From: a virus
Virus record (IMG/VR): IMGVR_UViG_3300043398_000077
Span: 1-22,123 of that record
Direction: 5' to 3' (one strand)
DNA length: 22,123 bases
Shown: piece by piece, positions 1,233-20,114 of the stretch
Layout of the letters: every line of letters starts with the position of its first letter
Position numbering within the stretch: position 1 is the stretch's first letter
Notes under the pieces: generated by a model
Seen by the model: only the letters and a program-made list of their open reading frames with translations
Told to the model about the DNA's origin: nothing
The model's database searches: none
Translations under genes and position numbers: made by a program

Positions 1233-1234
1233 GC

Positions 1235-1573: not shown

Positions 1574-1574
1574 T

Positions 1575-2147: not shown

Positions 2148-2156
2148 GAGGTGAAT

Positions 2157-3179: not shown

Positions 3180-3181
3180 AC

Positions 3182-6318: not shown

Positions 6319-6347
6319 TGTGCAGCTTTTAAAACGTCAGGACAATC

Positions 6348-7270: not shown

Positions 7271-7282
7271 TGGGGGGTGTTA

Positions 7283-7980: not shown

Positions 7981-7988
7981 GGTGACCC

Positions 7989-8678
7989 ATGATTATTTCC
8001 CCTGATGGCCTGGCACAGTTGAAACAATTCGAGGGATGCCGTCTCAAGGCCTATCAAGACATTGTGGGCATTTGGACAATCGGATACGGCTTCACGGATG
8101 GCATTCACGCGGGGATGGTCATCACGCAAAAGCAGGCAGAGCAAATGCTGCTTGATCGCCTTGTCCCGTATGAACAGGCAGTGCAGGACGCTTGCACCGT
8201 AACCCCGACGCAAGCCCAGTTTGATGCGTGTGTGTGCTTAGCCTGGAATATCGGCATAGGCGCTTTTCAGAAATCATCTGTCCTGAAATTTCACAATCAG
8301 GGCAAATTCAAAGAGGCCGCAAACGCCTTCGGGCTTTGGAACAAGGCAGGCGGCAAGGTGGTGGCAGGTCTGGTGCGCAGGCGTTCGGCTGAATCGGCGC
8401 TGTACCTGGAAGACTATGGCCCAGCATCAGACATGCCGCAAAAGGTTGACACCCCTGCCACGATGGCCACCAGTAAGATCAACATGGCCCAAGCGACAGC
8501 AGGCATCACGGCATCACTCGCGGCGGTACAGCCTGTCATTGATGCGATCAATGCGTTCAAATCTGGCGTCGATGGTCTTGGACAATGGGCCGTTCCTGCT
8601 GTGCTGATAGGTATTGTCGGCCTGTGCGGGTACACAATCTGGCAGCGTGTCCAACTGCGCAACAGGGGGCAAGCATGA
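7989..8678 (+). CDS. Phage lysozyme (GH24 endolysin) with C-terminal membrane anchor
   Basis: 229 residues, with GAGGTGA just upstream of the ATG. Residues 1-145 are a T4-type lysozyme that cleaves the MurNAc-GlcNAc bond of peptidoglycan. The catalytic spacing E-8-D-5-T is exact: Glu15, Asp24 and Thr30 in FEGCRLKAYQDIVGIWTIGYG-type sequence. The family blocks AQFDACVCLAWNIGIGAFQ-like and LVRRRSAE are also present. Unusually, about 50 residues of linker lead to a hydrophobic segment at residues 199-218 (AVPAVLIGIVGLCGYTIW) followed by basic residues, which would tether the enzyme to the inner membrane with the catalytic domain on one side. There is no N-terminal signal. The stop overlaps the Rz start (ATGA). 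I am sure of the enzyme class; the role of the anchor is inferred. Confidence 0.92.
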   Translation: MIISPDGLAQLKQFEGCRLKAYQDIVGIWTIGYGFTDGIHAGMVITQKQAEQMLLDRLVPYEQAVQDACTVTPTQAQFDACVCLAWNIGIGAFQKSSVLKFHNQGKFKEAANAFGLWNKAGGKVVAGLVRRRSAESALYLEDYGPASDMPQKVDTPATMATSKINMAQATAGITASLAAVQPVIDAINAFKSGVDGLGQWAVPAVLIGIVGLCGYTIWQRVQLRNRGQA

Positions 8679-9130
8679 GCCTTGTCCTTATTCGGCTGCT
8701 TCCATATCTGCTGTGCATTTTCGTAAGCGGATACGGTGCCTGGAACTATCAAGCGAATCATTACGGCTTGCTGATCATGACAATGAGGCTGGACTACGCC
8801 ACAGCGTCAGCAAAGGCCGCGAGAGAGAGCATGGATAAATTCATTGACATGCAAAAAAGGAAAGATGATGCAATCAAATCTGCCGAAAATCGCGCTGCTG
8901 TTAATCGGGCTGCTGCTGTCAGTGCTGCTACTGTCAGTGCAGGGCTGCGCGACGACCTCGCAGCCGCCCGTGATCGTCTCTCCGCCTCCACCTGTAGCTC
9001 CGTCACTGGCTACGCCGCTACCGTCAGTGCCGTACTCGACAGTTGCCAAGCAGAATATCGAGACATGGCGGCAAAAGCTGATGGCCACGCCGCTGATGCC
9101 AAAACCCTGATTGACGCTTGGCCTCAGTGA
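8675..9130 (+). CDS. Rz: i-spanin Rz
   Basis: 151 residues from the ATG at 8675, overlapping the lysozyme stop; a longer upstream frame overlaps the lysozyme and is not preferred. Residues 3-24 are a single N-terminal membrane anchor (IRLLPYLLCIFVSGYGAW). Residues about 40-100 form an Ala/Asp/Arg-rich coiled coil reaching into the periplasm (SMDKFIDMQKRKDDAIKSAE). That is the i-spanin design: it joins the outer-membrane lipoprotein Rz1 to fuse the two membranes in the last step of lysis. The +1-frame Rz1 gene lies wholly within it, as in lambda. Sequence identity to known Rz proteins is generally low, so the call rests on topology and arrangement. Confidence 0.85.
   Translation: MSLVLIRLLPYLLCIFVSGYGAWNYQANHYGLLIMTMRLDYATASAKAARESMDKFIDMQKRKDDAIKSAENRAAVNRAAAVSAATVSAGLRDDLAAARDRLSASTCSSVTGYAATVSAVLDSCQAEYRDMAAKADGHAADAKTLIDAWPQ
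8868..9110 (+). CDS. Rz1: o-spanin Rz1 lipoprotein, nested in Rz
   Basis: 80 residues in another frame inside Rz. The ATG at 8868 has AAGGA 6 bases upstream; the ATG at 8865 and a TTG at 8844 are worse spaced. A lipoprotein signal peptide is clear: Lys, then ALLLIGLLLSVLLLSVQGC, with the lipidated Cys at residue 27 of this start. Next comes the Pro-rich linker typical of Rz1 (SQPPVIVSPPPPVAPS) and a short C-terminal helix (IETWRQKLMA). The protein is predicted to sit in the outer membrane and pair with Rz. The fully embedded layout is the classic one. Confidence 0.88.
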   Translation: MQSNLPKIALLLIGLLLSVLLLSVQGCATTSQPPVIVSPPPPVAPSLATPLPSVPYSTVAKQNIETWRQKLMATPLMPKP

Positions 9131-9131
9131 T

Positions 9132-9725
9132 TCAGCGTGAGTACGTTTTGCGCTTCACGTTGCATACCGGCATTGCCCAAAAAGTACCGTCATTGAGCTT
9201 ATAGGTCTGGTGCCCCGTGATGATGCACCAATTGCCGGTGATTTTGCGCATGTTCTGCCAAACGTCGCCGCGCTCATATCGCCACGTATTGCCCGATTGT
9301 TCCCAGTCTGGCAATAGTGCTGGCTTCCCGTCCACCCAGTTGTTCAGGTCGTACGGGTCTTTCATGTCGCACTCTGCCCGGCATCCGAAGTAGGCCGCCA
9401 TCCCATGCAAGCGGTTGCGATGCCCCGTCCAGATGTACGACGCCAACAGCCTGCGCAGGTAGCCACCATTACCCACAGCGCGGCTCATGGTGGGCTCATA
9501 CAAGCCGCCTGGATACCGTGAGTCAATCGTGGCCACCCACGACAGCCACCAAGGCAAATCACCACGTCGAACAAATGACCTGTCAAACGGATCATCAAAC
9601 CTGCGTACGTATGATGGGACTTCATCCCAGCGGATGAGGAAGACCAGCGGAATCATCAGGATTGGCATCAGCAGGCCAATCAGCGTGACCAGCAGGGCCA
9701 TTATGGGTGTGGTGAAGTGTTTCAT
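9132..9725 (-). CDS. Phage membrane-anchored protein of unknown function
   Basis: 197 residues, last gene of the leftward operon; its start has AAAGG 8 bases upstream. Residues 8-31 are one strong membrane segment (LVTLIGLLMPILMIPLVFLI). The rest is soluble and rich in Trp, Arg, Gly and Asp: DLPWWLSWVATIDSRYPGGL, ASYIWTGHRNRLHGMAAYFG and ITGHQTYKLNDGTFWAMP. I recall this 'LPWWL.W..T.D...PGGLYEP ... Y.WT..RNR' pattern from phage proteins filed under a domain of unknown function. No catalytic assignment can be made. It ends 1 bp from Rz, tail to tail, with no convincing terminator between them. Confidence 0.72.
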   Translation of the reverse strand: MKHFTTPIMALLVTLIGLLMPILMIPLVFLIRWDEVPSYVRRFDDPFDRSFVRRGDLPWWLSWVATIDSRYPGGLYEPTMSRAVGNGGYLRRLLASYIWTGHRNRLHGMAAYFGCRAECDMKDPYDLNNWVDGKPALLPDWEQSGNTWRYERGDVWQNMRKITGNWCIITGHQTYKLNDGTFWAMPVCNVKRKTYSR

Positions 9726-9741
9726 GGAAAACCTTTAATGA

Positions 9742-10065
9742 CTACCTGCTGATCCTGATTTTTGCAGAGGGATGATCGCGGCACGCCTGTAAGTAGTCTG
9801 CACAGAATGGCACGAAGTGTTCCCACATTCCCCAGCCATTGGGAGAATTGAATTTCTCCATCTTGGCCTTTTGTGTCACCAGCATGGCCAGTCCCTTTTC
9901 AAGCGGTTCGATGATTTGTGCAGCATGGGTGATTTCAATTTCATCAGGCCGCCACAAGATCATGTAGATCCCTGCTTCTCTTGCCATCTTCCCAAGATTG
10001 TGGGTGATGTTGCGAGAGTAAAGCTCCCGGCCATCGTCATCAATCAAATCTACATCCAAGCTCAT
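9742..10065 (-). CDS. Conserved small phage protein (ITHNLGKMA/NGWG type)
   Basis: 107 residues. I chose the ATG at 10065 because AAGGGGC lies 7 bases upstream and it follows the previous stop as TGAAATG; the longer frame runs back through the neighbour. Features are an acidic N-terminus (DVDLIDDDGRELYSRNITHN), LGKMAREAGIYMILWRPDEI and a C-terminal FNSPNGWGMWEHFVPF. This exact series (ITHNL, LWRPDE, NGWG) recurs in small phage proteins as I remember them, all uncharacterised. No cofactor motif is visible. Context is a chain of coupled accessory genes. Confidence 0.75.
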   Translation of the reverse strand: MSLDVDLIDDDGRELYSRNITHNLGKMAREAGIYMILWRPDEIEITHAAQIIEPLEKGLAMLVTQKAKMEKFNSPNGWGMWEHFVPFCADYLQACRDHPSAKIRISR

Positions 10066-10066
10066 T

Positions 10067-10366
10067 TCATTGCCCCTTGTTAATGAATTGGTACAGCAAC
10101 ACGCGGACACCGTTGACGATGCCATATTCCTGCTTCGCCCTGCCAGATAGCACAGCACGGCGAAGCCTGTTTCTGACGGTTGGCGTGCTCAGCTTGCACT
10201 CCTTGCTCATTTGGGCCACGCTCATTGGAATGGTACGAAGACGGGCAATCGTCTGATCCCATTTGACGTTCACTACATCCACTTTTTTCTCTTCGTTTTT
10301 GGTGCAGGCTGGGATGTAGTTTGGTGGCACCCAGCCATAACCTGGGGCTAGTGTGGTTTGGATCAT
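10067..10366 (-). CDS. Small DNA-binding (winged-helix type) protein
   Basis: 99 residues. The start has a perfect AAGGAGG 7 bases upstream and overlaps the preceding stop (ATGA). The N-terminal 30 residues are extended (LAPGYGWVPPNYIPACTKNE). The remainder forms a helix-turn-helix: IARLRTIPMSVAQMSKECKL, STPTVRNRLRRAVLSGRAKQ and then a beta wing VNGVRVLLYQFI. This is the layout of short winged-helix proteins that recognise DNA. It could regulate the operon or act on host promoters; the target is unknown. Confidence 0.65.
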   Translation of the reverse strand: MIQTTLAPGYGWVPPNYIPACTKNEEKKVDVVNVKWDQTIARLRTIPMSVAQMSKECKLSTPTVRNRLRRAVLSGRAKQEYGIVNGVRVLLYQFINKGQ

Positions 10367-10782
10367 TTCACAGCCTCCTTATATTCGGCTTCTGTAAGAA
10401 AATGGATTTTGGGCTTTGGATGCCACTCGGCAACGTTAATACGCGTGACTTGCTCAATCCTGATTGACTGATTTGGCATGTCTTTTTTCCAATATTCGGC
10501 CGCTTTTTCCGCTTGCTGCATTGTAGAAAACGTGCCCAGAAGAACACGATCAAAGTTGTAGCGGCGCAGTTGATAAATTTCAAAAAACTCTCTCTTAGTT
10601 GAGAGAGCTTCAGGCTCTTGAAGTTGCTTCAAAGCATCTTGCAAAGCGCACTGAGTTTCTTGATTTTTTTGACGCCATTCCATGCGGCTATCAGAATCTG
10701 ACAAGCTGCAAAGCCTTCCAGTGTCCTCAAGCGCACGGGCAAGCCTGAAAATGGTGTCGGCTTCTTGTTTGGTTATTGGCAT
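10363..10782 (-). CDS. Hypothetical phage protein
   Basis: 139 residues from the ATG at 10782, which follows the previous stop after one base (TGAAATG); the TTG at 10797 overlaps that gene and is less likely. The sequence has a helical N-terminal half (KQEADTIFRLARALEDTGRL, then a Gln/Glu-rich stretch) and a C-terminal half with YNFDRVLLGTFSTMQQAEKA and EYWKKDMPNQSIRI, compatible with a small alpha/beta fold. I do not recognise a family. It ends by overlapping the winged-helix gene. Confidence 0.6.
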   Translation of the reverse strand: MPITKQEADTIFRLARALEDTGRLCSLSDSDSRMEWRQKNQETQCALQDALKQLQEPEALSTKREFFEIYQLRRYNFDRVLLGTFSTMQQAEKAAEYWKKDMPNQSIRIEQVTRINVAEWHPKPKIHFLTEAEYKEAVK

Positions 10783-10783
10783 T

Positions 10784-10963
10784 TCACAGCCTAACAATTA
10801 ACGGGTTAAGAAGTTCTTTGGCACACTTCAATGCTGCTTCGTCTGCTTTTCCACCGGTAGCCTGTTCCACTATTCGCCACCACGGCTTGTACCAATCCCA
10901 CCGCTCGACATAAAAAATTACCACGCTGTCACAACGTGCTTCTTTTCTGATTCGTACTTTCAT
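10784..10963 (-). CDS. Small basic Trp-rich phage protein
   Basis: A 59-residue ORF, supported by GGAAG about 7 bases upstream of its ATG and by the TGAAATG junction to the next gene. It begins MKVRIRKEARCDSVVIFYVE and continues with RWDWYKPWWRIVEQA, then a Lys/Ala helix. The short N-terminal strand with an aromatic-rich second half is a pattern I recall from tiny phage ORFs without known role. Removing it would leave an unexplained 180-bp hole in a tightly packed operon. Confidence 0.65.
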   Translation of the reverse strand: MKVRIRKEARCDSVVIFYVERWDWYKPWWRIVEQATGGKADEAALKCAKELLNPLIVRL

Positions 10964-11109
10964 ACATTTCTTCCAATTTCAGCCGCAGCACGAACGATGG
11001 CGCGGCGGGTCTCTGCGTAAGGGTCGGGCCTACTTGTCCGTGTTCTTTCAACGGTGAGCCGATAGCTGTGCCCCCGAAAATGGTTAAGCGGCCTGCTTGG
11101 CCTGTACAC
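10960..11109 (-). CDS. Possible short ORF in the gap after the exonuclease gene (start uncertain)
   Basis: The 120 bp between the exonuclease stop and the next small gene are covered by an open frame ending in TGA at 10960-10962, overlapping the next start (ATGTATGA). It encodes HFRGHSYRLTVERTRTSRPD and then YAETRRAIVRAAAEIG, which looks like real protein rather than noise. No ATG is present: the frame runs back into the exonuclease gene, where GTG (11109) and TTG (11115) are the nearest candidates, neither with a good ribosome-binding site. It may use a rare start, be reached by frameshift from the exonuclease, or be a remnant. Confidence 0.3.
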   Translation of the reverse strand: MYRPSRPLNHFRGHSYRLTVERTRTSRPDPYAETRRAIVRAAAEIGRNV

Positions 11110-12853
11110 CCTCAATATGGCGCACCAGTGCGGCCAGCATGTCGGACAGTTGTTCACGGTGGTACAGGCATGCACCACGGTCTTTCAGCGCGACTTCAAA
11201 GCCAAGCGTGCGCAGGAAATCGGCAGACAGGTTGAAGCCAAGCAGCACGCCGATTTCGCCCAGCTTGAGTGATGGCGCACTGCGTGGCGTTGGCTCGGTT
11301 GGCCGTGTCATTGGGATGACGTTGGCCGCTGTGATGTGGTCTACCTTTTCATCGTCGTAGATCATTTGATTGCCGGCATGAATTCCATTCGCTGGTATAG
11401 CGGTAGCATAGATAGCAAATGCTTCACGTTCCGCAGCCGCTTGCGCCACCTGTTCGGCAGCAACGCGCACAGCCTCCGCGCGGCTCGCTTCTGCTGCTTC
11501 ACGTTGTGCCTTTGCCTGTTCTTCCGCCCGAATGCGCTCACGTTCCGCTTCCAGCCGCGCCGCTTCTTTCGCTTCGTGATGGGTGACCCGTGCCGTCACT
11601 GTGTTCTGGAAATCTTCGGCAGATTTCAAGCACAGCGTTGTGATGTCGGCAAACAGGAATGCGTAACCGTGCAATCCCTTGGTTTCAAGGTTCGCTTGAA
11701 TGCGGTCAGCGGTTTCGTTTGCTTCGATCTTGCACCGGGCCAACTCGGTGGACACCTTGTCACGCATGCTGTCCAGACTTTTCATTCCCTTGATCACATT
11801 CTGAAAATAAGCAGGGATGACGGGCATGTAGGGCTTGCCGATGCGGTCGTTCAGCTTCTTGATGTGGGTAACCAGCTCTGCAGCAGCTTCGCCAACGATG
11901 GCAACACGCCGGTTCTCCTTTTCGGCCTTGACCAGTTTTTCAATGACCAGGCGATTGGTACGGGCAGTTTCGCGGTACAGCGCAACAGTCTTGCGCATTG
12001 CGTCAATGCTGTCGGTCTGAGCAAGTGCGCCAGCTTCAGCGGCATCGAGGGCATCTTCTGCCGTTTTCAGCGTTTTGACCGTGGCTTCCAGGTCGGCAAA
12101 GTCTTGGTCTGTTTCTGGCTTTTTGTTGATGCGCTCGACGTAGGCAGTCAGTGCAGAACCAAACTTGGCCAGGTTGTCCACCAGGGCGATAGAGCCTTTC
12201 ACGGTGATGCTGACGGCTGGCAAACCCAGTTGAGGCGCTGCGACTGGGGGGGCGACAACTTCGGGCGGGATGTAGGCGTCCATGTCTTGTTCGAACTGAT
12301 CCCATCCGGCCGTGATTTCCGCGCGCAGCTTCGGATCGCTGGCGTACCAGCAATGGCGGGCATCGATCAGAGTATCGCCATCCCATTTGCTGGCCATGAA
12401 CAACACGCGATCAGCACCAGACACCATGAGCTGCTGCTCCATTTGCACTTGGTACATCTTGGGCAATCCGTAGCCGTTCCCTTGATCACCCATGCATGCG
12501 GCCAGCTCGTTGTTCAGCGTCTTGTGTTCAAACGCGGTCGAGTCATCCGCTGTCAACCCGTCAAAGCTGGCGGACAACTTGCCTTCTGAGCCCGTGACTG
12601 GGTAGAGGTCTTCATCAATGATCTTTTCGGCCATCGGCCGTGCCAGTGCTTCAAAACGGTGGCCGTCATCAAACCGGCGCTGGGTAGCTGCGTCAACATC
12701 AGGCACATGGCCGGTGGCCATTTCATGCAGCAGTTGGCTGCGCGTCTTGTACGGACTGCAGCCAAGCATGGCAGGGGCATCGCTGGCATTGAAGTGGTTG
12801 GCGCGATAGGCATGCCAATCTGACGAGCCTTGAATCAATTCATGGGTTTGCAT
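11084..12853 (-). CDS. YqaJ/lambda-exonuclease family recombination nuclease with long C-terminal extension
   Basis: 589 residues, start with AGGAG 8 bases upstream that overlaps the end of the RecT gene. Residues 1-195 are the nuclease: QGSSDWHAYRANHFNASDAP, then LG, GHRFEALAR, the catalytic SFDGL (Asp98) plus EHK (Glu109, Lys111), and YQVQMEQQLMVSGADR, all expected of this fold. It degrades one strand of double-stranded DNA ends to feed the annealing protein. Usual members are 200-350 residues. Here a coil region (about 230-420), a charged coiled coil (about 426-480, EAARLEAERERIRAEEQAKA) and a C-terminal domain (526-585, LKLGEIGVLLGFNLSADFLR) are added. That last domain resembles small DNA-binding domains in phage proteins. 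The pairing with RecT is strong context. Confidence 0.85.
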   Translation of the reverse strand: MQTHELIQGSSDWHAYRANHFNASDAPAMLGCSPYKTRSQLLHEMATGHVPDVDAATQRRFDDGHRFEALARPMAEKIIDEDLYPVTGSEGKLSASFDGLTADDSTAFEHKTLNNELAACMGDQGNGYGLPKMYQVQMEQQLMVSGADRVLFMASKWDGDTLIDARHCWYASDPKLRAEITAGWDQFEQDMDAYIPPEVVAPPVAAPQLGLPAVSITVKGSIALVDNLAKFGSALTAYVERINKKPETDQDFADLEATVKTLKTAEDALDAAEAGALAQTDSIDAMRKTVALYRETARTNRLVIEKLVKAEKENRRVAIVGEAAAELVTHIKKLNDRIGKPYMPVIPAYFQNVIKGMKSLDSMRDKVSTELARCKIEANETADRIQANLETKGLHGYAFLFADITTLCLKSAEDFQNTVTARVTHHEAKEAARLEAERERIRAEEQAKAQREAAEASRAEAVRVAAEQVAQAAAEREAFAIYATAIPANGIHAGNQMIYDDEKVDHITAANVIPMTRPTEPTPRSAPSLKLGEIGVLLGFNLSADFLRTLGFEVALKDRGACLYHREQLSDMLAALVRHIEGVQAKQAA

Positions 12854-12857
12854 GGTC

Positions 12858-13784
12858 TTACTCCTGGTTCATCTCGTTGTGCCGTGCTTCGTACAAGTCC
12901 AGCAGGGCTTGATGGGAATCTTGGTCAGTAATGGACTGAATCAGGCTTGCGGCCTCGTACAGTTGATCCATGTTGGTAGCGTCGCGCAACCCTGCCTCAA
13001 TACTGGCAATGCTTGGGCCTTTTGGCGCGATGTCTTCGACATTGGCTTTTGCACCAGACTTGATGCGCTCGATCTGGTCATCAGTCAGTGGGAATTTGGT
13101 TTGCGCCATCGCGATGATCTGTGCGGCAGTCTTGCGGCCTGCTGCCATCACGTTGATCCATGTTGGCAGGTTCTTTTCAAACTGATCAGCAGGGTAGAAC
13201 GCTTGTGGTTCTGGCTGTGCTGGCGGGTGGGCGACCTGGTTGCCAGATGGGATGTCCATGATTTCTTCGGCCACCGGCATACCACGTAAAACATCAGGGA
13301 ACACGTCACGCAAAGCGAATGCACGGGCACGCATCTGCATCATCCGTTTTGGATACTGAGTCCATGGCCCTTGTTTTCCAAGCAGGCCAGCAGCCTTAGC
13401 ATCGGCCTTGCTGAAAGAACGCTCTTGCTCGGGTTCGCCGCGACGCTTCACCCGACAAGTTGCCACATCATCGGTCTGAGATTCAATGATGTATTCGCAC
13501 ACCGCACTACCACGAGCCAGGGCAATGACTGCATCTCCCCAAAGTGCAGGTCTACCATTAATAATGGCGAGGTTTTGCAGCGCTTGGAGTGGCTTCAAGC
13601 CCAGCTCTGAGCCCCATTGCATGGCGATCAGGCAATTGCCTGGCTTGCCCTTGAAATCCTTTGGGACAAGGTCAGAGTCAGCCAAGTATTGGCTGAACGT
13701 CATAGCTTGATCAAAGGTCTGAGGGCTCAGGTCAAATTGTTGGCGCGTCTGCAGTGCGCCGGTTTCTTGGGACGTGGTATTCAT
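12858..13784 (-). CDS. recT: RecT-family single-strand annealing protein
   Basis: 308 residues, start with GAGG 5 bases upstream. The conserved RecT core spans about residues 20-185: FSQYLADSDLVPKDFKGKPG, NCLIAMQWGSELGLKPLQAL, NLAIINGRPALWGDA and the signature PWTQYPKRMMQMRARAFALR with DVFPDVLRG. It coats single-stranded DNA made by the neighbouring exonuclease and anneals it to a complementary strand, giving RecA-independent recombination and helping repair or concatemer formation. The C-terminal 120 residues are variable and probably mediate partner contacts. It lies 4 bp from the exonuclease gene. Confidence 0.9.
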   Translation of the reverse strand: MNTTSQETGALQTRQQFDLSPQTFDQAMTFSQYLADSDLVPKDFKGKPGNCLIAMQWGSELGLKPLQALQNLAIINGRPALWGDAVIALARGSAVCEYIIESQTDDVATCRVKRRGEPEQERSFSKADAKAAGLLGKQGPWTQYPKRMMQMRARAFALRDVFPDVLRGMPVAEEIMDIPSGNQVAHPPAQPEPQAFYPADQFEKNLPTWINVMAAGRKTAAQIIAMAQTKFPLTDDQIERIKSGAKANVEDIAPKGPSIASIEAGLRDATNMDQLYEAASLIQSITDQDSHQALLDLYEARHNEMNQE

Positions 13785-13791
13785 GTTGTCC

Positions 13792-14031
13792 TCATTGGTT
13801 AAAAAAGTAAGGCAGTGCGATCCCCATCAGCGCTGCGGCAAAAACCAGCAGGGCGACGAATACGGCATAGCCCAGCCGTTGCACGCCATCGGCAATGCGC
13901 TCGATGGGAGCGGTAGGGGTGGGAAGATCGGTGTCGACGTATTTGCCGCCGTTGTTCCACTCAAGGATTGAGCAGTCGTAAGGGTGTGGACAAGGCTGAT
14001 TACCTTTCCAGCAGTGGCCGGAGCATTTCAT
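13792..14031 (-). CDS. Small Cys/His-rich membrane protein
   Basis: 79 residues, start with a perfect GGAGGTGAGAA site, overlapping the previous stop (ATGA). The N-terminus has closely spaced Cys and His (CSGHCWKGNQPCPHPYDC), possibly a small metal site, followed by a linker. One C-terminal membrane segment follows (YAVFVALLVFAAALMGIALP). Phages often carry such 'Cys-rich head plus membrane tail' mini-proteins in early operons; I know no function for them. It directly precedes recT. Confidence 0.68.
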   Translation of the reverse strand: MKCSGHCWKGNQPCPHPYDCSILEWNNGGKYVDTDLPTPTAPIERIADGVQRLGYAVFVALLVFAAALMGIALPYFFNQ

Positions 14032-14285
14032 TTCTCACCTCCAGCCACAACCACAGGACTACCAGTCCTATGCCCACGGTGCGTATAGCACTGCAGGGTT
14101 TTGTCATCCAGCCATTGCCAAGCTGCGTTCTCACCACATACTTGCCTGGCAGCCCATTGGTGGGCGTGATGGCAGTTAGCGTCTTCTGTTTCGACACGCT
14201 CACGTTCGTAGTCAAAGTGCGCAGCGGCAATCAGCCATACGGTGCCAAGCACCATCGCTGTGATCCATGCGATGGCGGTTTTCAT
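14028..14285 (-). CDS. Small exported or membrane-anchored protein
   Basis: 85 residues, start with GAGG 7 bases upstream, joined to both neighbours by ATGA overlaps. The N-terminus is a hydrophobic segment after one Lys (KTAIAWITAMVLGTVWLIAA), compatible with a signal anchor. The remainder is hydrophilic with three Cys and several His (CHHAHQWAARQVCGENAAWQ, then CYTH). It resembles other small phage periplasmic-facing proteins. It is not recognised further. Confidence 0.62.
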   Translation of the reverse strand: MKTAIAWITAMVLGTVWLIAAAHFDYERERVETEDANCHHAHQWAARQVCGENAAWQWLDDKTLQCYTHRGHRTGSPVVVAGGEK

Positions 14286-14632
14286 ACGTCCACCTCGGCA
14301 TTCAATTTGGCATATTCCTGCGCCATCTCGCCGAGGGCTTGCGATGCTTCAATCGTCCCGCGATTGGCACACAGCACCAGGGCACGGAAGACCTTGGCCA
14401 TCAGCGCGTGATTGCCTTCTATGGTCTCGCACATGACATCGAAAACGGATGCGTCAACACGCGCACCCCACACGTATTTCTTAAAACCGGATTTGTCGGT
14501 CAGCGCTTTGGCTGTCACGGTGCCAATGAATTCCGTGGCAATCCGTGACTCTTCACGACGCATTGCATCGTGGTACGTTTCCATGGCCTCAATGTGCCGG
14601 TCTGCGTCTAATACGGGGTCTGCATAGCTCAC
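14282..14632 (-). CDS. Hypothetical phage protein
   Basis: 116 residues. It starts at GTG overlapping the repeat-protein stop (GTGA), with GGAGG 7 bases upstream, and ends by ATGA overlap with the next gene. It is mostly helical and rich in Ala, Glu and Met: MRREESRIATEFIGTVTAKA and MAKVFRALVLCANRGTIEAS. A short piece, GFKKYVWGARVD, resembles GWKQYVWGRIND of the small protein at 20452-20637. No domain is recognised. Confidence 0.62.
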   Translation of the reverse strand: MSYADPVLDADRHIEAMETYHDAMRREESRIATEFIGTVTAKALTDKSGFKKYVWGARVDASVFDVMCETIEGNHALMAKVFRALVLCANRGTIEASQALGEMAQEYAKLNAEVDV

Positions 14633-15468
14633 AGCGCCACCTCGACAAGCTTTCCATCTTGGATTCCATACCAGACGTTGGCTTTAAGGTCTTCACCCAC
14701 ATAGCCAACAGCGATGCGATTGCGCGTTCCATCGTGCCAAGCCATCGCAACAGCGCCTCCACTTCCAGACTTAACTTTTGCTTGTTTGCCAGCACAGCAT
14801 ATGACTGCGTTTTCGCCTTCGGCATTGATCCGTGCGCCGTAGCCACTGGAGCCGATCTGTGCGCCGTAGCCACTGGCGCCGATCTGTGCGCCGTAGCCAC
14901 TGGAGCCGATCTGTGCGCCGTTGCCACTGGAGCCGATCCGTGCGTCGTTGCCACTGGCGCCGATCTGTGCGCCGTAGCCACTGGAGCCGATCTGTGCGCC
15001 GTTGCCACTGGAGCCGATCCGTGCGTCGTAGCCACTGGAGCCGATCTGTGCGTCGTAGCCACTGGAGCCGATCTGTGCGCCGTAGCCACTGGAGCCGATC
15101 CGTGCGCCGTAGCCACTGGAGCCGATCCGTGCGCCGTAGCCACTGGAGCCGATCCGTGCGCCGTCTTCGCCGCCATCGCTATCAGTCGCATCGACAACAT
15201 CAACATTGACTGCTGTTGTCGATGTAATGATCTCCAGTGCTTCGTTTTTGTGATCCTCAGCCACAGCACTAACAACAGATGGCGTCTCCAGAATGACGTT
15301 TTTCCAGACGTTGTTTGTAAGCCACCGTGCATCGTCGAATCGCTTGTCTTCGCGCAAGGCCTTTTGAACTGCTGTGTACTCGGCACCTTGCGGAAACTTG
15401 GCGACGAACCACTTATACCCATCGGAGCAGGGTCTCCATGGCTTGAGAACTTCATTCGTGATTTGCAT
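14629..15468 (-). CDS. Nonapeptide-repeat (putative beta-solenoid) protein, first gene of the leftward operon
   Basis: 279 residues; AAAGGAG precedes the ATG by 6 bases. The N-terminal 60 residues (VLKPWRPCSDGYKWFVAKFP, QGAEYTAVQKALREDKRFDD, ARWLTNN) look like a small globular domain I recall from phage repeat proteins. Residues about 102-209 are twelve copies of the nonapeptide GAQIGSSGY, and two or three decayed copies follow (GARINAEGE, NAVICCAGK). The regular Ile and small-residue spacing suggests stacked beta turns with a Tyr or Asn ladder. The C-terminus (MAWHDGTRNRIAVGYVGEDL, NVWYGIQDGKL) looks like a capping domain. Its place next to the early promoter implies strong immediate-early expression, often the niche of anti-defence or host-takeover proteins; this is inference. 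No catalytic residues are visible. Confidence 0.75.
   Translation of the reverse strand: MQITNEVLKPWRPCSDGYKWFVAKFPQGAEYTAVQKALREDKRFDDARWLTNNVWKNVILETPSVVSAVAEDHKNEALEIITSTTAVNVDVVDATDSDGGEDGARIGSSGYGARIGSSGYGARIGSSGYGAQIGSSGYDAQIGSSGYDARIGSSGNGAQIGSSGYGAQIGASGNDARIGSSGNGAQIGSSGYGAQIGASGYGAQIGSSGYGARINAEGENAVICCAGKQAKVKSGSGGAVAMAWHDGTRNRIAVGYVGEDLKANVWYGIQDGKLVEVAL
14827..15164. repeat. 27-bp tandem repeat array (12 full units plus a partial)
   Basis: Twelve full 27-bp units run from 14827 to 15150, each starting GATC, with a 14-bp partial unit to 15164. Twenty-three of the 27 positions are invariant. The four variable positions each have two states and all change an amino acid in the minus-strand protein: Gln/Arg, Gly/Asp, Tyr/Asn and Ser/Ala. 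I see no synonymous difference between units. Because 27 is a multiple of three, several other frames also stay open here and give false ORFs. Confidence 0.95.
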
Positions 15469-15495
15469 ATCAACTCCTTTGCATGTTGAGCCTCA

Positions 15496-15524
15496 ATTAT
15501 CACCATACCGTTACGCCAAGTCAA
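15496..15524 (-). promoter_or_regulatory. Leftward early promoter
   Basis: On the minus strand a -35 box TTGACT (15519-15524) and a -10 box GATAAT (15496-15501) are separated by exactly 17 bases. Predicted transcription starts near 15489, leaving a leader of about 20 bases that holds the AAAGGAG ribosome-binding site of the repeat-protein gene at 15468. This is the best sigma70 match I see in the window and would drive the whole leftward operon. The spacer contains GTAACGGT on the minus strand. Confidence 0.8.
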
Positions 15525-15581
15525 CGCTATCCGCATCTTTTTTATTATCGTAAACCCTATGAACAAAATTCACGTTGCCCG

Positions 15582-15610
15582 TTGCTTTGCAAACAGTTTA
15601 GCTATATAGT
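15582..15610 (+). promoter_or_regulatory. Rightward early promoter (predicted leaderless start)
   Basis: A -35 box TTGCTT (15582-15587) and a -10 box TATAGT (15605-15610) are separated by 17 bases. A start 6-8 bases beyond the -10 box falls at or within a base or two of the ATG at 15618, so the regulator mRNA would have essentially no leader. The palindrome TTTGCAAA (15586-15593) lies across the -35 box and spacer and could be part of an operator. Confidence 0.65.
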
Positions 15611-15617
15611 CATCCCC

Positions 15618-15824
15618 ATGAACTGGAAAACACAAATCTACAGCATCCAAGCAAAGCATGGGCTATCTCAGCAGCAGATAGCCAGGTATTGCGGATGCTC
15701 GCAGGCCACGATCAGCGACCTCGTCAATGGCGTGATCAAAGTACCGAATTTCGAGATCGGCACCTACCTGGTCGATCTCGAAAAAGCAAGCCGGGCGAAG
15801 ATTCGAGAATTCTTCGCGGAGTAA
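15618..15824 (+). CDS. Cro/C1-type helix-turn-helix regulator
   Basis: 68 residues from the ATG at 15618; the upstream extension of the frame is out of keeping with the domain and overlaps the promoter. The HTH is clear: LSQQQIARYCGCSQATISDL with VNG after the recognition helix, at residues 16-38. A short tail EKASRAKIREFFAE may dimerise. At this size it is Cro-like, with no room for the cleavable C-terminal domain of a CI repressor. It probably binds between the divergent promoters and sets the early balance. No ribosome-binding site precedes the ATG, matching the leaderless prediction. A terminator follows 55 bases downstream. Confidence 0.82.
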   Translation: MNWKTQIYSIQAKHGLSQQQIARYCGCSQATISDLVNGVIKVPNFEIGTYLVDLEKASRAKIREFFAE

Positions 15825-15879
15825 GTTGTCTCCCAGCCGCGTGTCATCCGTGCCACTCCTCACGGTGTGCGGTTGTTTT

Positions 15880-15911
15880 CCCCACTGGCCTTCGGGCTGG
15901 TGGGGGTTTTT
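15880..15911 (+). terminator. Intrinsic terminator after the regulator gene
   Basis: CCCCACTGGCC pairs with GGCTGGTGGGG across a TTCG tetraloop, giving an 11-bp stem with two G-T wobbles. The stem is followed by GTTTTT. A smaller hairpin, CCGTG/CACGG (15848-15865), lies just before it. The next gene starts 12 bases downstream with no clear promoter in between, so the rest of the rightward operon would need read-through. Confidence 0.8.
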
Positions 15912-15922
15912 ATAAGGTCGAA

Positions 15923-16141
15923 ATGAACTCAACATTTAATTGGCGAACTGGGCCATCTTGCATGGCGAATGAGGCGGAGGCGAGAAAGGCCGCGCAGCAT
16001 GCCCGGTCTGTCGGCAAGACGCTGGATGCGCAAGGCCGCGCTACCGTCAATCTGGCCAAGGCTGTATCTGGCATCAGCCTGTCTAAAACGGCTCAAGCTG
16101 ATGCTGAGCGCAATGCGCGGATTCGGGGGAGGGCGCTGTGA
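15923..16141 (+). CDS. Small hypothetical phage protein
   Basis: 72 residues from the ATG at 15923, with AAGG 6 bases upstream; an in-frame ATG at 15962 is an alternative start giving 59 residues. The product is helical and rich in Ala, Arg and Lys: ANEAEARKAAQHARSVGKTL, then a C-terminal basic stretch ERNARIRGRAL. Net charge is positive, so it may bind nucleic acid, perhaps as an antitermination or accessory factor, though nothing specific is recognised. Its stop overlaps the next GTG start. Confidence 0.6.
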   Translation: MNSTFNWRTGPSCMANEAEARKAAQHARSVGKTLDAQGRATVNLAKAVSGISLSKTAQADAERNARIRGRAL

Positions 16142-16710
16142 TCTCTGTATTGTTTGCCAGGTCAGATAGCGTCTACAAGCGGCTACCCGGCTGTGATGTT
16201 TACGACATTGACCGTGACGCCAGGACATGGACAGGCACTTGTGCTGTAGTCGCGCACCCACCCTGCAGGGCATGGGGAAAACTGCGCCAGTTTGCCCAAC
16301 CCAGACCAGACGAGAAGGCCTTGGCTCTATATGCCGTTGATATGGTGCGCCAGTTTGGCGGTGTGGTAGAGCATCCTGCCGGATCGACTCTATGGGCTGC
16401 CAAGGGACTGCCAACACCTGGCCGCGCTCCCGATGACTTTGGTGGCTGGACTGCCGAAATCCGCCAATGCGATTTTGGCCACAAAGCCGAAAAGTTGACG
16501 TGGCTCTATATCGTCGGATGCCATCCGGACGATCTGCCAGACCTCCCTCCGCGTGGTGAGCCAACTGGCGTCATCAAGCCACAGCGCGGAGTGCCGCGGA
16601 CGCTGAAGATCGTCACAAAAGCTGAGCGAGAGCACACGCCGATGCCATTGGCTCAATGGTTGGTTGATTTGGCGGAGCGTTGCAACATTAAAAAAGAGAT
16701 AGCAGCATGA
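16138..16710 (+). CDS. PPC-motif protein resembling a degenerate C5-methyltransferase
   Basis: 190 residues from a GTG overlapping the previous stop (GTGA), with GGGGAGGG upstream. Key elements are an N-terminal strand-loop SVLFARSDSVYK, a possible second strand CDVYDIDRD, then VVAHPPCRAWGKLRQF (Pro41-Pro42-Cys43) and GGVVEHPAGSTLW (Glu78). In DNA cytosine-5 methyltransferases a PPC loop supplies the catalytic Cys and a nearby ENV loop a Glu, and the order matches. However, the classic glycine-rich SAM loop is not evident and the protein is short. Further blocks are QCDFGHKAEKLTWLY and QRGVPRTLKIVTKAEREHTP. I recall it as a conserved phage family of uncertain activity. It may modify DNA or nucleotides, or be a non-catalytic relative. 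Confidence 0.65.
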   Translation: MISVLFARSDSVYKRLPGCDVYDIDRDARTWTGTCAVVAHPPCRAWGKLRQFAQPRPDEKALALYAVDMVRQFGGVVEHPAGSTLWAAKGLPTPGRAPDDFGGWTAEIRQCDFGHKAEKLTWLYIVGCHPDDLPDLPPRGEPTGVIKPQRGVPRTLKIVTKAEREHTPMPLAQWLVDLAERCNIKKEIAA

Positions 16711-16937
16711 CCAACACCCTCATCCAAATAGCCCTTGCAGTCTTTGGCTTGACCGCCATGTGGATGGCCATGGGCCACAACGCCAAGGGTCGCAAGTGGG
16801 CACCTGTTGTCGGGCTTTGCGGCCAACCCGCATGGATGCTGTTTTCTTGGCAATCCCAAGCCTGGGGCTTGATGCTGCTGTCAGTGGCGTGGAGCTTGGT
16901 CTATGTGCGCGGGATTGCTGTGCAGTGGGGGGATTGA
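16707..16937 (+). CDS. Small phage membrane protein
   Basis: 76 residues; the ATG overlaps the previous stop (ATGA). Two to three hydrophobic segments are seen: IQIALAVFGLTAMWMAMG, GLCGQPAWMLFSWQS and WGLMLLSVAWSLVYVRGIAV. The 'G..GQP.W......Q.WG.......Y' pattern recurs in small phage membrane proteins I remember from replication regions. Its function is unknown. The stop is 1 base before the PP-loop gene start. Confidence 0.68.
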   Translation: MTNTLIQIALAVFGLTAMWMAMGHNAKGRKWAPVVGLCGQPAWMLFSWQSQAWGLMLLSVAWSLVYVRGIAVQWGD

Positions 16938-16938
16938 A

Positions 16939-18030
16939 GTGATCAAGCACGTTATATCCGTCAGCGGCGGCAAAGACAGCACGGCAACGCTGCTGCTGGC
17001 ACTGGCCCGGTGTCTGCGGGAATCTGTTATTCCAATCTTCTGCGACACCGGAAACGAGCACGCTGTCACCTATGCCTATCTAGACTATTTGGAGAGCGCT
17101 TTGGGCGTGAAGATCATTCGCCTGAAGGCTGATTTCACAGAGCAGATTCTGGCGAAAAGGCATTTCATCGCCAGAGATATGCGCCACCGCCGCGAGTACG
17201 ACACTCGGCCAGTGTTCGAAGCCGATGGCGTCACACCAGTACCGAAGCGCGACGGGCGCGGCAACATCGTGCTGAACAAGAAGGGCAAGCCAGTACAGAA
17301 GACGGTCAAAGTCGGTGGCGGTCGTCGGGTGCGCTGGACTAACAAGGCGAAGCGTCGCGCTCTGGCCGTGCTGTTTCCTAGCGGAAACCCATTCCTCGAT
17401 CTGTGCATGTGGAAGGGTCGATTCCCATCCCGAAAGGCGCAATTCTGCACCCAGGAGCTCAAGACAAACATGGCTGTAGCTTTTCAGCTTGAGCTGCAAG
17501 AGGCCGGGCACAAGGTCATAAGCTGGCAAGGCGTGCGCCGCGATGAATCTGAGAACCGGCGTAACGCCAAGAAGTCCGAGCGCGTCGGCGGTGGTCTATG
17601 GATTTTCAGGCCCATTGTGGATTGGACAGCCGCCATGGTGTTTTCACATTGCACGTCGCACGGCATGCGCCATAACCCGCTTTACACCCAAGGCATGGGG
17701 CGTGTGGGCTGTATGCCTTGCGTCAATATCAACAAGCCAGAGTTGCGCCAGATCGCGGCTCGCTTCCCCGAGCACCCTGCGCGCATCGCCGAGTGGGAGC
17801 GCATCGTCGGCGAGTGCTCTAAGCGGGGCTTTTCCACCTTCCTTGCTGATGCCAATGCCGCAAAAGACCGTCGTGTGATCTTCGACGATCTGAACATCTG
17901 GTCACGCATCGAATGGTCAAAGACCACGCGCGGCGGCAAGCAGATGGACTTGTTGAGTATTGAGGATTCTGGCTGTTCATCAAGCTACGGCCTTTGCGAT
18001 GTCGCTGATTTTGAACTGGAGGCAGCATGA
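16939..18030 (+). CDS. PP-loop ATPase, PAPS-reductase/adenine nucleotide alpha-hydrolase family
   Basis: 363 residues from the GTG at 16939, with GGGGGGATT upstream; the earlier in-frame start overlaps the membrane-protein gene. The PP-loop SGGKDS is at residues 9-14, followed by IPIFCDTGNEHAVTYAYLDY. Later blocks are QFCTQELKTNMA (Cys170), GVRRDESENRR, FRPIVDWTAAMVF and GRVGCMPCVN (Cys258, Cys261). The family activates a substrate with ATP. Relatives include PAPS reductase, tRNA thiolation enzymes and the DndC protein of DNA phosphorothioation. Three well placed Cys could hold an iron-sulfur cluster. A basic insert at about 85-145 is unusual. Phage copies are common, and their role is not established. 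It sits by an HNH protein and the PPC-motif protein. Confidence 0.82.
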   Translation: MIKHVISVSGGKDSTATLLLALARCLRESVIPIFCDTGNEHAVTYAYLDYLESALGVKIIRLKADFTEQILAKRHFIARDMRHRREYDTRPVFEADGVTPVPKRDGRGNIVLNKKGKPVQKTVKVGGGRRVRWTNKAKRRALAVLFPSGNPFLDLCMWKGRFPSRKAQFCTQELKTNMAVAFQLELQEAGHKVISWQGVRRDESENRRNAKKSERVGGGLWIFRPIVDWTAAMVFSHCTSHGMRHNPLYTQGMGRVGCMPCVNINKPELRQIAARFPEHPARIAEWERIVGECSKRGFSTFLADANAAKDRRVIFDDLNIWSRIEWSKTTRGGKQMDLLSIEDSGCSSSYGLCDVADFELEAA

Positions 18031-18863
18031 AAACCAACGTCTCCGAAACAAGCCTTGAGGCCTACCACTCCCTTTCGGTCAAGCACGATCTGCAGCCTAA
18101 GGAGCGTGCCGTCCTGAGCGTGTTTGGCGGCCCGGCAGATACCTACACCCGCCAGCAGTTAGCCGACAAGGCTTGCATGCCCATCAATGTGGTGTGTGGC
18201 CGCGTCAATTCGCTGGTTGCCAAAAAGGCCTTGTGTGTGCGTGGGTCGCGTGTAGACCCACTGACGCGCAAACGCCAGGAGTTGCTGGGTTTCCCGGTGG
18301 CCGAGCAGGGGGGGGCTGCTTTGAATAATCGAATCTCAATTCCAAAGCGTGTTCGCTTTGAGGTTTTCAAACGTGATGGATTTACATGCCAATACTGCGG
18401 TGCTCATCCGCCATCAGTGGTCCTGCATGTTGATCATGTCCACCCTGTATCTCAGGGAGGCACCAATGACATTGACAACTTGGTCACGGCCTGTGAGGCA
18501 TGCAACCAGGGTAAATCTGATGTCTTGCTTTCTGACATTCCGCAAAGCCTTCAAGAAAAAGCTGCGCAGATTGTAGAGAAGGAAGAGCAAATCAAGGGAT
18601 ACCAGCGAGTTTTGGCAGACAAGCGCCAGCGCATCAGTGATGAAGCCGATCTGGTGAATGACGTTTATGAGTTGCTGAACCCTGGGTACACGCTGAACGA
18701 ATCGTCACTGGTTTCAGTTCGCTTGTTCATTGAAAAGCTGGGTGTTGGCACGGTGATGGAAGCAATGCAAATCGCCATGACCGCCAACCATATCAAGACC
18801 ACCAACCGGCAATTTAAGTATTTCTGCGGCATCTGCTGGAACCGCATTAGGGAGTCAGCATAG
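18027..18863 (+). CDS. Winged-helix plus HNH endonuclease fusion
   Basis: 278 residues; ATG overlaps the previous stop (ATGA) and has GGAGG upstream. Residues 10-90 form a winged helix (YHSLSVKHDLQPKERAVLSV, TRQQLADKACMPINVVCGRV, NSLVAKKAL). Residues 107-165 are an HNH nuclease: RFEVFKRDGFTCQYCG, HVDHVHPVSQGGTNDIDNLV and CEACN, with zinc ligands Cys121, Cys124, Cys156 and Cys159 and the catalytic His near residue 137. Residues 180-278 form a helical tail (SLVSVRLFIEKLGVGTVMEA, KYFCGICWNRIRE). An eight-G tract (18308-18315) separates the first two domains. It may nick DNA in replication or packaging, or be a selfish nuclease inserted in a replication protein; I cannot tell which. Confidence 0.8.
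   Translation: MKTNVSETSLEAYHSLSVKHDLQPKERAVLSVFGGPADTYTRQQLADKACMPINVVCGRVNSLVAKKALCVRGSRVDPLTRKRQELLGFPVAEQGGAALNNRISIPKRVRFEVFKRDGFTCQYCGAHPPSVVLHVDHVHPVSQGGTNDIDNLVTACEACNQGKSDVLLSDIPQSLQEKAAQIVEKEEQIKGYQRVLADKRQRISDEADLVNDVYELLNPGYTLNESSLVSVRLFIEKLGVGTVMEAMQIAMTANHIKTTNRQFKYFCGICWNRIRESA
18308..18315 (+). other. Eight-G homopolymer tract at a domain junction
   Basis: The run spans codons CAG GGG GGG GCT of the wHTH-HNH gene. If one G is gained or re-read, translation ends after Gly-Cys-Phe-Glu; if one is lost, it ends after Leu-Leu. Either event leaves only the winged-helix domain. Confidence 0.85.
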
Positions 18864-19690
18864 TGGCACGCTCACGCAATATCAAGCCTGGATTCTTCAC
18901 CAATGAAGACCTTGTTGAACTCGACTTTGGCACACGACTTCTGTTTGCAGGCCTTTGGACTATTGCAGATCGAGAAGGGCGACTGGAAGACCGGCCAAAG
19001 AAAATCAAGATGAACATTTTCCCGGCTGACACCGTGGACGTTGATTCCATGCTCGATGAACTTTCCCGTTATGGGTTCGTTCAGCGCTACGAGGTTAACG
19101 GTGCGAAGTACCTCCAAATCACCAATTGGAGTAAGCATCAAAACCCTCACCACACTGAGAAAGCCTCTGAAATTCCGGGCAATAACGGTGAGATAACGGT
19201 TAATCAACCGTTACAACCCAAAGAGTCACAGGAGCAAGACGGTGGAAATCTTGCTGATTCACTGATTCCTGATTCACTGATTCCTGATTCACCTTCACTT
19301 CGTTCGGACTCGCGCACGGCGCCGGGGTCGGCTTGCATGGCAATGAGGAAAGCAGGGATGGCGGATGTGAACCCGGCACACCCAACGCTTCGGGCTTTGC
19401 TGGATGGTGGCATCACGATTGATGAACTGGTGTCGGCTGCCGCCGATGCGGTGGCAAAAAAAAAGCCGTTCGCTTATGCCTTGGCTATTGCCGAAGGGCG
19501 CCGCCGCGATGCAGCAGCCGTGGGTCAATTGCCTGCCGCAAAGGACGCTGCCAACGAGACCACGTACCAGCGAAGCATGCGCAAAAAGATGCAGGAATGG
19601 GCGCCTGGAATTGCAGTAAAAGCCCCGAATTTTTCAAAACCATTTGACGATCTGGAGACCATCAATGTCCCTTCCATTGAAAGCCGTTGA
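18863..19690 (+). CDS. Phage replication initiator, O-like
   Basis: 275 residues from a GTG sharing a base with the previous TAG, with AGGGAG upstream. The N-terminal 100 residues are RSRNIKPGFFTNEDLVELDF, GTRLLFAGLWTIADREGRLE, DRPKKIKMNIFP and then YGFVQRYEVNGAKYLQITNW with KHQNPHHTE. This winged-helix block is common in phage replication initiators. A Ser/Pro/Asp-rich linker follows, with the repeat SLIPDSLIPDS, then a helical C-terminal domain (LDGGITIDELVSAAADAVAK). The gene itself carries clustered repeats (19183-19213) that could be the origin, as in lambda O. The product should bind the origin and recruit the helicase through the P-like protein downstream. Confidence 0.8.
   Translation: MARSRNIKPGFFTNEDLVELDFGTRLLFAGLWTIADREGRLEDRPKKIKMNIFPADTVDVDSMLDELSRYGFVQRYEVNGAKYLQITNWSKHQNPHHTEKASEIPGNNGEITVNQPLQPKESQEQDGGNLADSLIPDSLIPDSPSLRSDSRTAPGSACMAMRKAGMADVNPAHPTLRALLDGGITIDELVSAAADAVAKKKPFAYALAIAEGRRRDAAAVGQLPAAKDAANETTYQRSMRKKMQEWAPGIAVKAPNFSKPFDDLETINVPSIESR
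19183..19213. repeat. Candidate replication-origin repeats inside the O-like gene
   Basis: TAACGGT occurs at 19183-19189 and 19194-19200 as direct repeats and inverted at 19207-19213. The last two form a perfect 8-bp inverted repeat, TAACGGTT-AATC-AACCGTTA (19194-19213). The direct copies fall in different codon frames, so they are not produced by amino-acid repetition. Clustered repeats inside an initiator gene are how lambda-type origins are built. Confidence 0.5.
19254..19293 (+). repeat. 15-bp tandem repeat in the O-like gene linker
   Basis: Two identical copies of CTGATTCACTGATTC (19254-19268, 19269-19283) and most of a third copy follow the candidate origin by 41 bases. They encode the SLIPD repeats of the linker. 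Each unit holds two CTGATTC half-units, and the stretch is AT-richer than its surroundings, so it may also serve as an unwinding or binding region. Confidence 0.8.
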
Positions 19691-20114
19691 CCGACTCTTT
19701 GATCGCTTGATTGCCACCTATGGACGAGACTTTTCGTCGAAGTGGGAAGGGTTGGATCAAGCTGCAATAAAGACCTCTTGGTCGCACGAACTTTATGGGT
19801 TTACGTCGAACTTGGGCTCACTGGCCTGGGCTCTTGAAAATCTTCCTGAACGCGCACCGAACGTTATCGAGTTCCGAAACTTGGCTCGCCGAGCCCCCGC
19901 AACGCCTGAAAAACAGTTACCCGCTCCAAAAGCCGACCCAGAGCGGGTTGCTGCCGAACTGGCCAAGCTGGCTCCAATTCGCCGGGAACGTAATTTTTCT
20001 GGCGATGACGGCAAGGACTGGGCTCGTCGCCTGGTAGCCCGTCACCAAGCGGGCGAGCGCCTGCGTCCCATCCAAATCCGCTTTGCGCATGAAGCGCTGA
20101 GGATCACACCATGA
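19665..20114 (+). CDS. P-like replication protein (probable helicase loader)
   Basis: 149 residues from the ATG at 19665, with GGAG 8 bases upstream, overlapping the end of the O-like gene in another frame. Residues 3-75 carry VDRLFDRLIATYGRDFSSKW, SHELYGFTSNLGSLAWALEN and LPERAPNVIEFRNLARRAP, the pattern of the lambda P / helicase-loader family in proteobacterial phages. It would bring the host DnaB helicase to the initiator at the origin. The C-terminal 70 residues (PERVAAELAKLAPIRRERNF, KDWARRLVARHQAGERL) are basic and helical. No Walker motif is visible, so it is P-like rather than DnaC-like. The O-then-P order strengthens the call. Confidence 0.72.
   Translation: MSLPLKAVDRLFDRLIATYGRDFSSKWEGLDQAAIKTSWSHELYGFTSNLGSLAWALENLPERAPNVIEFRNLARRAPATPEKQLPAPKADPERVAAELAKLAPIRRERNFSGDDGKDWARRLVARHQAGERLRPIQIRFAHEALRITP

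Follow-up and report, generated by a model that had tools for sequence, protein, structure and literature searches.

A YdhT-like phage repeat protein, from a family with three hypervariable codons per unit, as a candidate early counter-defence factor

Hypervariable repeat genes of phages were noticed between 2004 and 2007. In Tweety gp54, Che8 gp57 and PMC gp51, unique N- and C-terminal parts flank a variable tandem array of tetrapeptide AAxx units, encoded in the early region. The third codon positions of the Tweety gp54 repeats are invariant, which its authors read as selection for variation (PMC2884959). In a later report, gp54 acts in counter-defence, and escape from the Phrann gp29/gp30 defence goes with changes in the number of its repeats (PMC9262239). 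A second case is Bbp36 of the Bordetella phages, the gene that holds the annotated "variable region 2" (VR2). It is reported to be dispensable and to have no link to tropism (PMC2884959), and being nonessential it fits an accessory counter-defence gene. VR2 was described without a function or a mechanism, and repeats of this sort go by the labels collagen-like, lectin, tail or hypothetical in annotations. In Podospora, the WD40 repeats of the HNWD proteins (het-d/e/r) evolve in concert while four surface codons of each unit are under positive selection, and their repeat number is unstable (PMC2873952).

The DNA analysed here (the window) is a linear virus record of 22,123 bases, and therefore the absence of other genes from it proves little. 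An ORF on the minus strand (14629-15468) starts with ATG and encodes a YdhT-like repeat protein of 279 aa, which consists of a helical N-terminal domain, twelve units of 9 aa and a beta cap. Tandem Repeats Finder reported the array with a period of 27 bp, 12.5 copies, 94% matches and no indels. Its score of 578 far exceeds those of all other tandem arrays in the window; a short 15-bp tandem repeat lies within the replication-initiator gene (19254-19292, plus strand; SLIPDSLIPDS). Twelve units in exact register occupy residues 104-211 (nt 15159-14836), flanked by the non-repeat residues 1-103 and 212-279, and the arrangement of twelve 9-residue units between two non-repeat domains given in a preliminary description of this DNA was found to be real. 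The periodicity of nine residues was confirmed as well, but the reading of the unit as GAQIGSSGY is better replaced by A[RQ]IG[SA]SG[YN][GD] (14836-15159, minus strand), because the hypervariable residues then correspond to unit positions 2, 8 and 9. In this array codons 2, 8 and 9 vary, and two Ser-to-Ala changes are found at codon 5. Three long ORFs in other frames span the array (14545-15489 and 14832-15209 on the plus strand, 14589-15566 on the minus strand); they are by-products, since the 27-bp repeat is free of stop codons.

Upstream of the array on the same strand, the N-terminal domain (residues 1-60; 15289-15468) carries the motif ITxxxxxxWxxCxDGxxWFxxKFPQGxxY...AL..D.RFDDARWL, which is kept in relatives. 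It is followed by a helix (residues 63-85) in the AlphaFold2 model and by an acidic linker to residue 103 (together 15160-15288). The C-terminal beta cap (residues 212-279; 14632-14835, minus strand) was delimited from the model and from the cap common to DUF7666 repeat proteins and Bbp36.

When the protein was compared with NCBIfam, residues 3-271 aligned to positions 2-262 of the 269-position YdhT model (NF007410, E = 1.3e-45, 156 bits). The curated NCBI cut-off is 300 bits, and the E. coli YdhT copy scores 488 bits. On these alignments the protein is YdhT-like in architecture, not a member by the rule of NCBI: the N-domain, the 9-aa frame of the array and the cap are co-linear with E. coli YdhT over the full length. 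The latter differs in that its own units are mutually diverged, its length is fixed in E. coli and its gene lies outside a phage operon. Pfam gave no domain in the window protein or in its isolated N-domain. A single-sequence scan of viral contigs found no homologue, alignment-based scans recovered several dozen further ones among viral contigs, and a scan of genome contigs with narrow patterns returned only 8 loci. The closest annotated phage homologue is ORF55 of Edwardsiella phage GF-2, a "putative collagen-like protein" (44.5% over 99%); another of the best annotated ones is "ydhT" of Komagataeibacter phage phiKX1. GF-2 ORF55 has the same architecture and is encoded in the left operon directly after N; it differs in its 20 units, its palette DR/ND/YY/DS and its framework codons.

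A tblastn search with the cap only matched 56 phage records, including Bbp36 of BPP-1 and BIP-1 (E = 8e-6, 47%), ES18 gp53 (2e-7), Salmonella S107 orf54 and many Pseudomonas phages. The N-domain of Bbp36 and ES18 gp53 is DUF7666 (PF24703; 1.7e-10 and 5e-34, respectively), which Pfam does not find in the window protein. Since the cap is common to proteins with different N-domains, the family is, as judged from these matches, modular: a YdhT-type or a DUF7666 N-domain is combined with a variable array and the common cap. Bbp36 of BPP-1, BIP-1 and BMP-1 shares with the window gene the cap and a location in the cI-side early operon. Its array joins an invariant framework to a variable di-residue (YR/ES/NY) and varies between sister phages; it differs in having a unit of 24 bp (8 aa) and DUF7666 in place of the YdhT-type N-domain. 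An invariant framework with a variable di-residue is found in the window array and across the family, and the difference between close phages was seen in relatives. ES18 gp53, S107 orf54, gp13 of Pseudomonas phage phi2 and gp30 of Acinetobacter phage fLi-Aba02 have the common cap, 9-aa units and the operon position, and differ in the DUF7666 N-domain and in units of the xNTGxxSAA type. The link through the common cap between YdhT, the DUF7666 repeat proteins and Bbp36 was not found in the literature searched and appears to be new here. The N- and C-terminal regions of Tweety gp54 scored at most about 1 bit in profile comparison with the window family. With its tetrapeptide units, gp54 is an analogue and not a homologue, and function can be proposed from it by analogy.

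Family members have between about 1 and 37 units. With one or two units in loci L025, L029 and L087, a long array is dispensable in some members. In L040 and L041 a YdhT-type N-domain is found without an adjacent array (L041 lies at a contig end); to go by the sequences, this domain may be an independent module. Many contigs end or start inside the array (L016, L027, L028, L030, L031, L033-L036, L057, L059 and L118), and this is also seen in isolates, where 2648501177_000011 and _000012 carry the two halves of one array. Because short-read assembly breaks in the array, the family is under-represented as full-length genes. Over 7.6 kb, L003 (CP025887.1 13751-23083, "Escherichia phage 503046") has a 97% match to the region of the ydh operon in E. 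coli, which suggests a chromosomal and not a phage origin for at least this stretch.

The differences between units inside single arrays sit on codons 2 (mostly R/Q), 8 and 9. In GF-2, the six remaining codons show not a single nucleotide difference among the 20 units, and each of the eight possible pairings of {Q,R} with {DR,DS,ND,YY} is represented. In order to evaluate this pattern across the family, arrays were grouped by their framework codons into 28 independent arrays with 382 units, and the distinct codon variants were counted per column as minimal event counts. The final statistics exclude L015 (minus strand), a false array read in antisense. Within arrays, 128 nonsynonymous and 10 synonymous variants were counted, as compared with 38 synonymous variants expected from the code (P ~1.5e-9, for arrays that are distinct in framework and still share deeper ancestry). 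The P value was 2e-8 to 8e-11 across transition/transversion weights of 1 to 4, and 4.6e-7 when single-nucleotide changes only were used. No synonymous variant was found in 22 of the 28 arrays, and 118 of the 128 nonsynonymous variants fell on codons 2, 8 and 9. The window array alone holds 4 nonsynonymous and 0 synonymous variants, which is not significant by itself. The invariance of third codon positions, with variation at the first and second, that was described for Tweety gp54 is matched by the window (4:0) and by the family (128:10).

Framework codons behaved differently within and between arrays. In the 16 IGSSG arrays, synonymous pairs amounted to 0.41% within arrays as against 48% between arrays, and the framework codons of the IGSSG consensus units never differed nonsynonymously between arrays. 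The uniformity of the framework is due to homogenisation, but homogenisation alone fails to explain why only amino-acid-changing variants persist. Taken from these codon counts, the array is evolving in concert, with diversifying selection on three codons per unit. Through gain, loss and shuffling of units, six of the nine codons remain identical within a phage, and the residues at unit positions 2, 8 and 9 are held diverse. A role of the repeat at the DNA level was considered and is unlikely, because framework codons are synonymously different at 48% between arrays. Hypervariability at three codons per unit is the strongest signal obtained. It was absent from the preliminary description, as were the links to YdhT, DUF7666 and Bbp36/VR2, and no family-wide selection test was found in the literature searched, so that the test is new here.

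The same counts bear on two alternatives. If the array were a passive rod or spacer that does no more than keep N-domain and cap a given distance apart, its surface residues would drift and its length alone would be tuned. The range of unit numbers agrees with this, as does the difference in repeat number among Tweety escape mutants (PMC9262239), and surface residues should tolerate change. However, drift would yield synonymous variants, of which there are nearly none, and variation falls on one set of three codons in almost all arrays; we regard a passive rod as unlikely. Alternatively, heterogeneity at positions 2, 8 and 9 could stop stacked charges or aromatics from destabilising or aggregating the rod, with no recognition code being involved. 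Variation at the amino-acid level only would be explained, and a weak, uncorrected avoidance of identical di-residues two units apart was observed in several arrays. Nevertheless, neighbouring units show no avoidance and identical units are often adjacent, as in the ten YR units in a row of BPP-1, while the R/Q alternation would not require two to five types of di-residue per array. This makes the breaking of residue ladders decidedly improbable.

The chromosomal ydhT gene of E. coli served as control. Its array is not homogenised: of 468 framework pairs, 123 were synonymous and 289 nonsynonymous. Between two Escherichia copies of ydhT the array differs by 12 synonymous and 5 nonsynonymous codons. 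The gene was found in 5,367 of 5,426 E. coli genomes, in 5,362 of which at least 80% of the query was covered, with near-constant length. By these comparisons the E. coli array is evolving conservatively, without the pattern of the phage arrays. ydhT is the last gene of the ydhYVWXUT operon, which encodes Fe-S and aldehyde ferredoxin oxidoreductase proteins. This position and the full-length similarity to YdhT would suit a metabolic helper related to that redox operon and carried by phages as an auxiliary gene. This is highly unlikely, since no redox genes lie near the phage copies and the phage arrays are hypervariable, in contrast to the frozen E. coli YdhT.

Phage arrays change fast and differ even between close relatives. 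L019 and L021 are 99.8-99.9% identical in their 6-kb flanks, yet they have 10 and 8 units, respectively. L070 and L071 share 99.9% identity as far as the array, from which point they diverge. BPP-1, BIP-1 and BMP-1 hold 14, 20 and 18 units in different order. The VR2 of BIP-1 (L123) has seven GTATAGNY units; BPP-1 is represented by L122 and L128. No source of the NY units was found in the BPP-1 genome stretches examined (effectively all but the last ~2.8 kb). Two loci of one isolate (L107 and L110; 2721755548_000002 and _000004) carry identical N-domains and different arrays. In an evolution experiment with Serratia symbiotica, a 54-bp deletion in ydhT_1 at position 782,372 was one of 21 mutations and was listed without comment (PMC12505973, Tables 1 and 2). 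The position lies inside a mitomycin-inducible prophage at ~772-819 kb (PMC12505973). Judging from its length, the deletion would correspond to two 27-bp units. A diversity-generating retroelement was rejected as the mechanism because the base pattern is not adenine-specific, 37 of 124 variable nucleotide columns being without A. No reverse transcriptase was found among the Pfam-scanned ORFs of the 22-kb linear fragment.

An AlphaFold2 model of the window protein was built with 24 relatives. The N-domain was helical and confident (pLDDT mostly 81-94, residues 1-60), and the cap reached 88-93. Both are kept in relatives, which bears out the expectation of conserved caps around the repeats. The array was modelled with one five-residue strand per unit at a pLDDT of ~40-42. 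A second model, of an Escherichia YdhT with diverged units, displayed the same strand pattern, with confidence increasing towards the cap. The beta-solenoid proposed in the preliminary description is thus favoured by one strand per unit in two models and weakened by the low pLDDT across the array. It is plausible only, given the known tendency of AlphaFold2 to predict beta-solenoids too readily for near-perfect repeats (PMC11795689). In the model, the variable residues are probably exposed, with A-x-I pointing inward, position 2 pointing away from the interior and the turn holding positions 8-9. In Foldseek searches of the PDB, all matches had E values of at least 1.5 (model 2) or 0.28 (model 1), and a PDB profile search gave nothing convincing. 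VIA-align returned assorted beta-helices at Z 6-11, which is unspecific; the array fills the match list and the N-domain is barely sampled. Matches to RTX chain profiles were weak (E 0.07-0.9), and the aligned Asp and Leu of GGxGxDxLx are absent from the window units.

Among the beta-solenoids aligned with the low-confidence model were QnrB1, MfpA and AlbG (Z 6-9). Together with the early position beside recombination genes, this could indicate a DNA mimic or DNA-binding rod, like the pentapeptide-repeat gyrase inhibitors or Gam. However, these Z values are at the level which the tool calls common for repeats, the array is near neutral (+2) in a protein of net charge -4, and family arrays range from -13 to +8. 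A pentapeptide-repeat mimic of the Qnr/MfpA kind was rejected on the 9-aa units, the charge of the array, and the lack of both a Pfam pentapeptide match and an A(D/N)LXX motif. DNA mimicry, raised in the preliminary description, therefore finds no backing in the charges, and a DNA-directed rod is very improbable.

The repeat gene is the first of a leftward operon, as had been described. Its ribosome-binding site is AAAGGAG (15474-15480, minus strand). A predicted sigma-70-like promoter, TTGACT-17 nt-GATAAT (15524-15496, minus strand), lies 28 nt before the ATG. It matches the consensus at 10 of 12 positions and is the best such match in bases 1-20000, although promoter-like matches as a class are no commoner than in shuffled sequence (8 found, 11 expected). 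The position and score of this match suggest a strong promoter. Divergently, an HTH regulator (Cro/repressor-like; Pfam HTH_3 and PHROG repressor families) is encoded at 15621-15824 on the plus strand. Downstream on the minus strand follow a gene for a 116-aa protein of no family (14282-14632), whose GTG overlaps the stop codon of the repeat gene, a RecT-like ssDNA-annealing protein (12858-13784; phrog_561, E = 2.8e-64) and a YqaJ-type recombination exonuclease (11084-12853; PF09588, E = 5e-12).

A location in the cI-side early operon was found in all eight phages or prophages in which the homologue was placed (GF-2, phiKX1, BPP-1, ES18, S107, phi2, fLi-Aba02 and a Roseomonas prophage), so that homologues are early and not scattered among late genes. 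The gene heads the operon in the strict sense in two cases alone, the window and the Roseomonas prophage (in the latter it faces a gene for an HTH protein of the YdaS type), and it comes after N or its equivalent in GF-2, ES18 and S107. In 15 of the 28 loci a recognisable, co-oriented gene for RecT, Erf or an exonuclease follows, and in three further ones a ParB-like gene; several other contigs end too early for this to be seen. In a Roseomonas plasmid (L113), a Lar-family restriction-alleviation gene (6888-7265) lies downstream of a DUF7666 repeat gene in the same leftward operon.

That the gene consistently belongs to the early left operon, at a distance from tail genes, bears on the "collagen-like" annotation of GF-2 ORF55, which would imply a structural or adhesive protein. 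Weak profile matches to PHROG tail-fibre, collagen and the Scl adhesin point that way, but GXY triplets are absent and the caps are those of early proteins, which makes such a role the least probable of all those considered. A collagen-like protein was also rejected on the repeat itself, whose period is 9 aa, with two Gly positions in each unit and no Gly-X-Y triplets. The Pfam collagen match was below cut-off and occurred in one relative only.

The explanation we favour, though tentatively and by analogy, is an immediate-early counter-defence protein whose array would be retuned by gain, loss and shuffling of units. The evolutionary signature and the operon position, on which it builds, are read from the sequences. 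The protein would appear within minutes of infection, before the products of the recombination genes. We infer that residues 2, 8 and 9 occupy the outer face of a stacked beta-rod; together with the unit number, these three residues would form a quickly re-encodable interaction surface. It would bind and disarm, or hold inactive, a polymorphic antiviral factor encoded by the host or a prophage. When this factor changes, variants with another number or order of units would be selected. The model for such retuning is Tweety gp54, in which escape from Phrann gp29/gp30 maps to repeat number, and the anti-defence or decoy role suggested in the preliminary description is in this way given an experimentally supported analogue, although not one related by homology (PMC9262239). 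A point against this explanation is that a protein of this architecture, YdhT, is encoded in a redox operon of E. coli, so that the family may originally have had a different role.

PADLOC gave no match for the repeat protein. Elsewhere in the window, the early right region encodes a PAPS-reductase-domain protein (16903-18030, plus strand) with PADLOC similarity to SspD, BrxP and DndC, possibly, by this similarity, a DNA-modification or defence-related gene. An HNH endonuclease-domain protein (18027-18863, plus strand; PF01844, 5e-15) is encoded between it and the replication initiator. At 28-987 (plus strand) a weak match to ART-PolyVal, an ADP-ribosyltransferase of polyvalent proteins, was below the Pfam cut-off.

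A more specific form of the counter-defence explanation, possible but doubtful, is that the three variable residues make up a combinatorial recognition code, with R/Q at position 2 multiplied by a di-residue palette at 8-9. The array would be regenerated by recombination within each phage lineage, its order and number matching polymorphic host or prophage defences. A point against counter-defence by a unit code is that Tweety escape mutants vary in unit number and not in unit identity (PMC9262239). If true, such a code would be a phage counterpart of the hypervariable WD40 recognition arrays of fungal NLRs; the HNWD proteins are eukaryotic allorecognition receptors of unrelated fold, and their likeness to the window array lies in the evolutionary mode only. 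If counter-defence by a retuned array is true, the family would represent a general means, independent of reverse transcriptase, by which phages rewrite a surface used for interactions inside the cell.
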